Of a stretch of 32,508 nucleotides of DNA, positions 16,404 to 17,688 are shown piece after piece. The position numbers were made by a program, and so were the translations under genes. Position 1 is the first letter of the stretch; every line of letters begins with the position of its first letter. The stretch is taken from assembly GCA_945865815.1 (NCBI GenBank), contig CAMBFR010000045.1, forward strand, positions 1 to 32,508, in the 5' to 3' direction. Under the pieces are notes generated by a model. That model did no database searches, was not told the origin of the DNA, and saw only the letters and a program-made list of their open reading frames with translations. This stretch comes from Candidatus Sulfopaludibacter sp. SbA3. Its GTDB lineage: Bacteria; Acidobacteriota; Terriglobia; 20CM-2-55-15.

Positions 16404-16418
16404 GTGGAGAAATATACG

Positions 16419-17054
16419 GTGGATCATTTATTGAATGACGTTGAGGTCCGCGTGCTCGGCTCGTTGATCGAAAAAGAGATCACGACGCCGGACTACTATC
16501 CGCTTTCGCTGAACGCATTGACGAACGCGTGCAACCAGTCGTCGAATCGCAGTCCGGTTGTGCGCTTCGACGAGAGCACGGTTGCCGAGGCGGCGGATAG
16601 TCTGCGTGAAAAGCGCCTCGTTCGCCTGGTGGACCGGGGCGACTCGCGAGTAACGAAGTATCGCCATGTGATGGGCGAAACCCTGAGCCTGGATGCGCGG
16701 CAGATCGCGGCAATGTGCGTGCTGATGCTTCGCGGGCCCCAGACCGTGGGCGAAATTCGAACGCGCAGCAATCGTGTGCATGATTTTTCGAGTCTCGAGG
16801 AAGTGGAGACGGTTCTGAATTTGTTGATTGCCCTGGAGCCTTTTCCGCTGGCCGTGCGCCTGCTACGGCAGACGGGCCAAAAGGAAGTTCGCTACGCGCA
16901 CCTGCTTTCCGGCCCGTCCGTGGAAGTCGCGTCCGATGTCCAGGCCGGCGTCGACCGTGTTGCCAAACTCGAGGAGACAACCGAACGGTTGCGCGAGGAC
17001 GTGGAAAATCTTAAAAAACAATTCGAGCAGTTCAGGAAGCAGTTCGAATCATAG
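16419..17054 (+). CDS. yceH: YceH family protein (DUF480), tandem winged helix
   Basis: The 211-residue protein aligns throughout with YceH/DUF480: VRVLGSLIEKEITTPDYYPL, LNALTNACNQSSNRSPVV, RVTKYRHVMGE, VLMLRGPQTVGEIRTRS and KEVRYAHLLSG, then a C-terminal coiled coil (TTERLREDVENLKKQFEQF). The fold is two winged helices, suggesting nucleic-acid binding; the role is not established. GTG 16419 was chosen because GGAG lies 9 nt upstream and the N-terminal length then equals that of E. coli YceH; GTG 16404 is the in-frame alternative. The FrnE-like gene follows after 16 nt and is likely cotranscribed. Confidence 0.9.
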   Translation: MDHLLNDVEVRVLGSLIEKEITTPDYYPLSLNALTNACNQSSNRSPVVRFDESTVAEAADSLREKRLVRLVDRGDSRVTKYRHVMGETLSLDARQIAAMCVLMLRGPQTVGEIRTRSNRVHDFSSLEEVETVLNLLIALEPFPLAVRLLRQTGQKEVRYAHLLSGPSVEVASDVQAGVDRVAKLEETTERLREDVENLKKQFEQFRKQFES

Positions 17055-17070
17055 ATACTGAACGAACCAT

Positions 17071-17688
17071 ATGACCAAACCAATCACACTGGAAGTATTC
17101 ACCGACTTCGTCTGACCCTGGTGCTATCTCAGTACCGGGCGTATTGAAAAGCTGAAGCGCAATTTCGATATCGACGTGCAGTGGGTGTTCTTTCCTCTTC
17201 ATGCCGACACTCCCGCCGAAGGCCTGCCGTTGAAAGACCTGTTTGCCGGACGAGGTCTGGACCTCGAAGCCATGCACACCCGCATGAAAGGTCTGATGGA
17301 GTCTGAAAAACTCCCCTACGAACGCCGGACGCACACCTACAACAGCCGCCTCGCCCAGGAGCTTGCCAAATGGGCGGACTCGCAACCGGGTTTCGAAGCC
17401 ATTCACGACGCCCTCTACAAAGCCTACTTTGTTCACAGCCGGAACATCGGCGATTCCAAAGTGCTCGTAGCGGTGGCGGAGTCGGTTGGCCTTGTCCCGG
17501 ATGAAGCCCGCGAAGTGCTCACCGAGCGCACTTTCAGAGAGGCGGTCGATGCTGATTGGGAGAAAGCGCGCCGGTCCGGCATCACCGGCGTGCCGAGTTT
17601 TGCCGCTGGCGGCAATAAGGTGGTTGGCGCACAACCCTACGAAGTGCTCGTAAAGTTGCTCGAAGCGGCGGGAGCACAGCCACGTTGA
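17071..17688 (+). CDS. FrnE/DsbA-family thiol oxidoreductase with in-frame UGA at the catalytic Cys: probable selenoprotein (UPWC)
   Basis: From ATG 17071 the frame reads MTKPITLEVFTDFV, TGA (17113-17115, codon 15), PWCYLSTGRIEKLKRNF, and continues uninterrupted to 17688. This gives 205 residues, the usual length of FrnE-like DsbA-family proteins (thioredoxin fold with helical insertion, C-terminal GITGVPSFAAGGNKVVGAQP with the cis-Pro loop). In the family this motif is DFVCPWCYL, so the TGA replaces precisely the first, nucleophilic Cys of CXXC. The remainder shows no decay. A SECIS-like hairpin follows (see 17123-17152). The simplest reading is UGA as selenocysteine; a sequencing error or a fresh nonsense mutation is the alternative. 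The protein has no signal peptide and would be cytoplasmic. It lies 16 nt after yceH. Confidence 0.8.
17123..17152 (+). other. Candidate bacterial SECIS element after the in-frame UGA
   Basis: CAGTAC (17130-17135) pairs with GTATTG (17141-17146), with one G-U pair, around the 5-nt loop CGGGC. The stem extends downward through T-A, one C x A mismatch, T-A, a bulged A, T-A, C-G and G-C to 17123/17152. Twenty nucleotides separate the UGA from the apical loop; in E. coli fdhF it is 18. The loop carries G at its second position, as known bacterial SECIS loops require a G in the first two positions. Position, stem length and loop all fit, but this has not been tested by folding software or conservation. 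Confidence 0.6.

Follow-up and report, generated by a model that had tools for sequence, protein, structure and literature searches.

A predicted FrnE-like selenoprotein with a UPWC active site in an acidobacterium

The locus and its reading frame

We analysed a stretch of 32,508 nucleotides from Candidatus Sulfopaludibacter sp. SbA3 (contig CAMBFR010000045.1), called the window below. The features of interest, all on the plus strand, are:

16404 to 17054, +: upstream neighbour, a DUF480 (YceH-like) gene that ends 16 nt before the ATG of the predicted selenoprotein gene
17071 to 17688, +: predicted selenoprotein gene for an FrnE-like DsbA-family thiol:disulfide oxidoreductase of 205 residues, with Sec15 (frame, Pfam, orthologues, fold)
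17113 to 17115, +: in-frame TGA, predicted to be read as selenocysteine, residue 1 of the UPWC active site (alignment of orthologues and Cys homologues)
17122 to 17124, +: TGC codon of the resolving Cys, C18 of UPWC (translation; invariant in the alignment)
17123 to 17152, +: SECIS-like hairpin (synonymous constraint, pairing, covariation)
17123 to 17125 with 17150 to 17152, +: outer helix of the hairpin, GCU/AGC
17129 to 17135 with 17141 to 17147, +: upper stem of the hairpin, UCAGUAC/GUAUUGA
17136 to 17140, +: hairpin loop, CGGGC
17590 to 17595, +: GVP loop codons, V174-P175; the invariant P175 is predicted to be the cis-Pro that faces the active site (cis geometry as expected from the family)

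The frame begins with ATG at 17071, runs for 14 codons (MTKPITLEVFTDFV) to the TGA at 17113 to 17115 and stays open for a further 190 codons from PWCYLSTG onwards. Its final stop, at 17686 to 17688, is also TGA, so that a single gene would read this codon in two ways. A preliminary description of the DNA had proposed this uninterrupted frame and had placed the internal TGA at the first Cys of a CPWC motif with the second Cys kept; translation confirms the frame, and relatives do carry Cys at that position. C18 is the sole Cys in the translation. Mechanical ORF calling at the locus yields only a 170-aa ORF with a GTG start at 17176, the shorter product that had been foreseen. The Pfam DSBA score is 119.3 bits for the read-through product, over the full domain and above the cut-off of 25.6, versus 79 bits for the short ORF, which places the read-through product in the DsbA family (PF01323).

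Co-transcription of the DUF480 gene with the selenoprotein gene is possible in this genome only. A yceH/DUF480 neighbour was found beside no orthologue among the related loci. Because the adjacency is absent there, we do not regard the DUF480 gene as part of the system and dropped the operon argument.

Orthologues, Cys homologues and the Sec machinery

Close orthologues occur in 7 of the 299 genomes sampled from the class (this genome included), all in one family and at 68 to 100% identity, and each of the seven has exactly one internal TGA, at the identical codon. A scan of GTDB contigs yielded 11 further TGA loci with at least 51% identity and the close-orthologue signature (51 to 78%); all 11 have TGA at this codon, although one, L051, is probably the same gene as L022. 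Their hosts are one acidobacterium (L051, 78%) and alpha-, beta-, gamma- and deltaproteobacteria, the proteobacterial contigs being named as Burkholderiales, Rhodospirillaceae, Gammaproteobacteria, Deltaproteobacteria or undetermined. L051 and L022 also point to an acidobacterial origin of the window. Cys homologues start at about 50% identity (from L061 on), with TGC or TGT at the site. Homologues thus have either Cys or UGA there, as the preliminary description had anticipated, and the in-frame UGA aligns with a redox-site Cys in the manner of bacterial selenoproteins. A search of a phage collection gave distant matches only, at 30% identity or less.

These alignments bear on two alternatives. 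The locus could be a pseudogene in which a nonsense mutation chanced on the active-site Cys codon; the frame is indeed interrupted, and a single-base change turns TGC or TGT into TGA. Conservation of the TGA across phyla refutes this, since the identical codon is present in the seven family genomes and in proteobacterial orthologues at 51 to 65% identity whose downstream frames are intact, and synonymous sites immediately past the TGA are frozen (see below). We therefore treat a nonsense mutation as excluded and give a pseudogene extremely little weight. Chance is likewise excluded as the origin of the TGA, because every close orthologue found has it at the identical codon; the earlier claim that its position is not random holds. 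Since the assembly is a draft in 193 contigs, a sequencing or assembly error for TGC or TGT might be suspected. It is refuted by the identical TGA in independently assembled orthologues, which leaves this explanation with a virtually nil probability.

The genome itself (4.34 Mb, 98% complete) has the full Sec machinery for which a search had been suggested. tRNA-Sec lies on contig C16 (69.9 bits; ARAGORN confirms SeC, anticodon tca), selB on C43 (386.9 bits), selA on C13 (564.4 bits) and selD on C15 (L017, C15:15603-16520; 362.2 bits). This selD contains one in-frame TGA, in SAGUAGK, like known Sec-containing SelD, and is itself a selenoprotein gene. Weaker tRNA-Sec matches (L002-L005) were checked and rejected as ordinary tRNAs.

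An internal TGA would also be accounted for if the codon had been generally reassigned, to Trp or Gly for instance, or if translation re-started at GTG 17176 and gave a short protein; the GTG-initiated ORF does exist. Both are contradicted by the genuine tRNA-Sec/selB system of the genome. Reassignment is further at odds with the gene's own terminal TGA and with homologues that carry Cys at the site, neither Trp nor Gly; a re-start would leave out an N-terminal strand and active site that are conserved and belong to the fold. General reassignment is thus excluded, and we judge these explanations together to be exceedingly improbable.

Across hosts, selB was found at E 5e-72 or better in every genome of the class sample with the TGA form, although this co-occurrence has little power within the class because selB exceeds the cut-off in 213 of the 299 genomes. 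Outside the family of the window, selA, selB or tRNA-Sec was found in 8 of 10 TGA-form genomes, and selA or selB in 5 of 14 genomes with the Cys form. The comparison of Sec and Cys hosts gave p=0.007 when pooled and a weakly significant p=0.047 without the window's own family (Fisher), the tRNA-Sec search having covered only some hosts. Among the nearest gammaproteobacterial Cys hosts, five of six are without selA, selB and tRNA-Sec. Two MAGs holding TGA orthologues, L052 (3.3 Mb) and L055 (2.8 Mb), count against the association, as selA, selB and tRNA-Sec were not found in them; incomplete bins or mis-binned contigs are the likely explanation.

In a maximum-likelihood tree the 16 TGA rows of the clade form one group (support 100/98) together with 11 Cys rows, which come from gammaproteobacteria and Planctomycetes and are nested among the Sec forms. 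A second FrnE-like TGA set in the class, with UPFC, UPYC or UPWC at the active site, is placed separately, elsewhere in the tree (L029 and L031, both in the window's family, and L030, L032, L037 and L038). The G-loop hairpins of this set differ from the hairpin of the UPWC clade, and two of its genes belong to family members that yielded no UPWC orthologue.

A conserved hairpin after the UGA

At the nucleotide level, codons +1 to +12 past the TGA are nearly frozen (CCC TGG TGC TAT CTC AGT ACC GKG CGT ATT GAR). We measured synonymous identity, that is, codon identity among amino-acid-identical codons, in these codons and in the remaining gene. For six sequences from acidobacteria it was 0.84 versus 0.47 (0 of 20000 permutations), and when each lineage was represented by a single sequence, 0.67 versus 0.44 (p=0.008). 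No such freezing was seen in the Cys homologues (0.46 versus 0.42, p=0.26).

The frozen codons can pair as a hairpin. Across orthologues its five-base loop is mostly CGGGC or CGUGC, 21 to 25 nt past the UGA, and the GCU/AGC helix below is weaker. Standard pairs fill 95% of the pair cells, versus 24 to 41% for slid partners. Four pairs changed on both sides, of which three depend on one divergent sequence (L030), and this counts against the covariation. So does, for the hairpin as a whole, an alternative hairpin of lower energy in L021-L023. Folding energy compared with synonymous-codon shuffles reached p<0.05 in only two of six sequences (L023, L024); energy alone is thus not decisive, and synonymous-site conservation is decisive instead. 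Other Sec-type relatives have different hairpins with small G-containing loops at roughly similar distances. Lying directly after the UGA and with a small G-containing apical loop of its own, the element has the features of a bacterial SECIS and is predicted to act as one.

We propose that SelB with Sec-tRNA-Sec would be positioned by this hairpin just downstream of the UGA at 17113 to 17115, so that the UGA would be decoded as selenocysteine. The terminal UGA at 17686 to 17688, without a SECIS, would act as a normal stop. The frame, the motif, the machinery, the TGA in orthologues, the constraint at the RNA level and the FrnE-like model together support the selenocysteine reading of the earlier description, and we put at about 0.96 the probability that 17071 to 17688 encodes a selenoprotein, an FrnE-like DsbA-fold oxidoreductase made by SECIS-directed UGA decoding.

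Selenocysteine might instead be inserted inefficiently, with the UGA serving mainly as a selenium-dependent attenuator of expression and not catalysis. To our knowledge, read-through of UGA in bacteria is never complete, which speaks for such a role. However, selenocysteine would sit at the nucleophile position and the resolving Cys is invariant, as catalysis would predict, and we consider attenuation very unlikely.

The predicted enzyme and its family

In an AlphaFold2 model with Cys in place of Sec (mean pLDDT 95.6, pTM 0.91), helix 16-31 starts right after residue 15, and strand 176-179 follows the GVP loop (P175). The nearest solved structure by both sequence and fold is D. radiodurans FrnE (DR_0659, PDB 5cnw/5coh; 74 bits; TM 0.89 as the best fold match, within a range of 0.86-0.90), which argues for the FrnE subfamily; SCO1869 is also among the best structural matches. 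The two proteins share a DsbA-like fold and a CPWC-type active site, and the protein of the window differs in its predicted Sec instead of the first Cys. It also differs at the C terminus: D. radiodurans FrnE has a CXXXXC motif that regenerates the active-site Cys (PMC8945050), whereas C18 is the only Cys here. CXXXXC is also absent from some FrnE proteins (PMC8945050). Since it is missing, the Sec15-Cys18 pair would have to be recycled by another reductant.

D. radiodurans FrnE is described as a cytoplasmic disulfide reductase whose loss causes sensitivity to cadmium and diamide (PMC8945050). No signal peptide was seen in the predicted selenoprotein, which is probably cytoplasmic as well. In the proposed reaction the Sec15 selenolate would attack disulfides or sulfenic acids of substrates and Cys18 would resolve the Sec15-substrate intermediate; by analogy with D. 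radiodurans FrnE, the enzyme may work on such substrates as a reductase or isomerase.

No NCBIfam selenoprotein model recognises the read-through protein. The best, the Rcas_1661 family thioredoxin-like (seleno)lipoprotein NF041057, shows a weak likeness through a C-terminal thioredoxin-fold match; at 47.6 bits, far under the 190-bit cut-off, membership of this DsbG-like family was rejected. With even the best model so far below its cut-off, the gene would in all likelihood be mis-annotated, as a truncated ORF or a pseudogene.

The preliminary description called this a new selenoprotein. That stands for the gene itself and not for the family. We take COG2761 to be the FrnE cluster. Among the new selenoprotein families of a 2005 Sargasso Sea survey is a 'DsbA-like protein, COG2761, UxxC', with nine sequences and a SECIS (PMC1088965), and the 2008 GOS survey listed DsbA 1 (PF01323, UxxC) with 63 sequences (PMC2398784). 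DsbA-like selenoproteins also appear in a 2006 bacterial survey, which separately gives three selenoprotein families for Acidobacteria. According to a 2026 review, 'DsbA-like protein form 1' is predicted with high confidence and not experimentally verified (PMC13188914). The gene resembles these published proteins in Pfam family, UxxC motif and downstream bacterial SECIS, and differs in its host, a presumed soil acidobacterial family. Judged by Pfam family and motif, it would belong to the same subfamily. Because the family was already published, we regard the gene as a well-supported addition to a known, biochemically unproven family.

At slightly under even odds, Acidobacteriota and several proteobacterial classes might have in common a recoding unit, either ancient or spread horizontally, that consists of the UPWC FrnE gene and a SECIS with hardly any variation (CUCAGUACCGKGCGUAUUGA). 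Sec would then look ancestral in the clade, with Cys having repeatedly taken its place, mostly in lineages that no longer have the Sec machinery. Recognising the gene as a selenoprotein gene would restore a redox enzyme to a bacterial family. It also offers a clean test case, in which close enzymes from related lineages have Sec or Cys at one position and the SECIS is simple and highly conserved.
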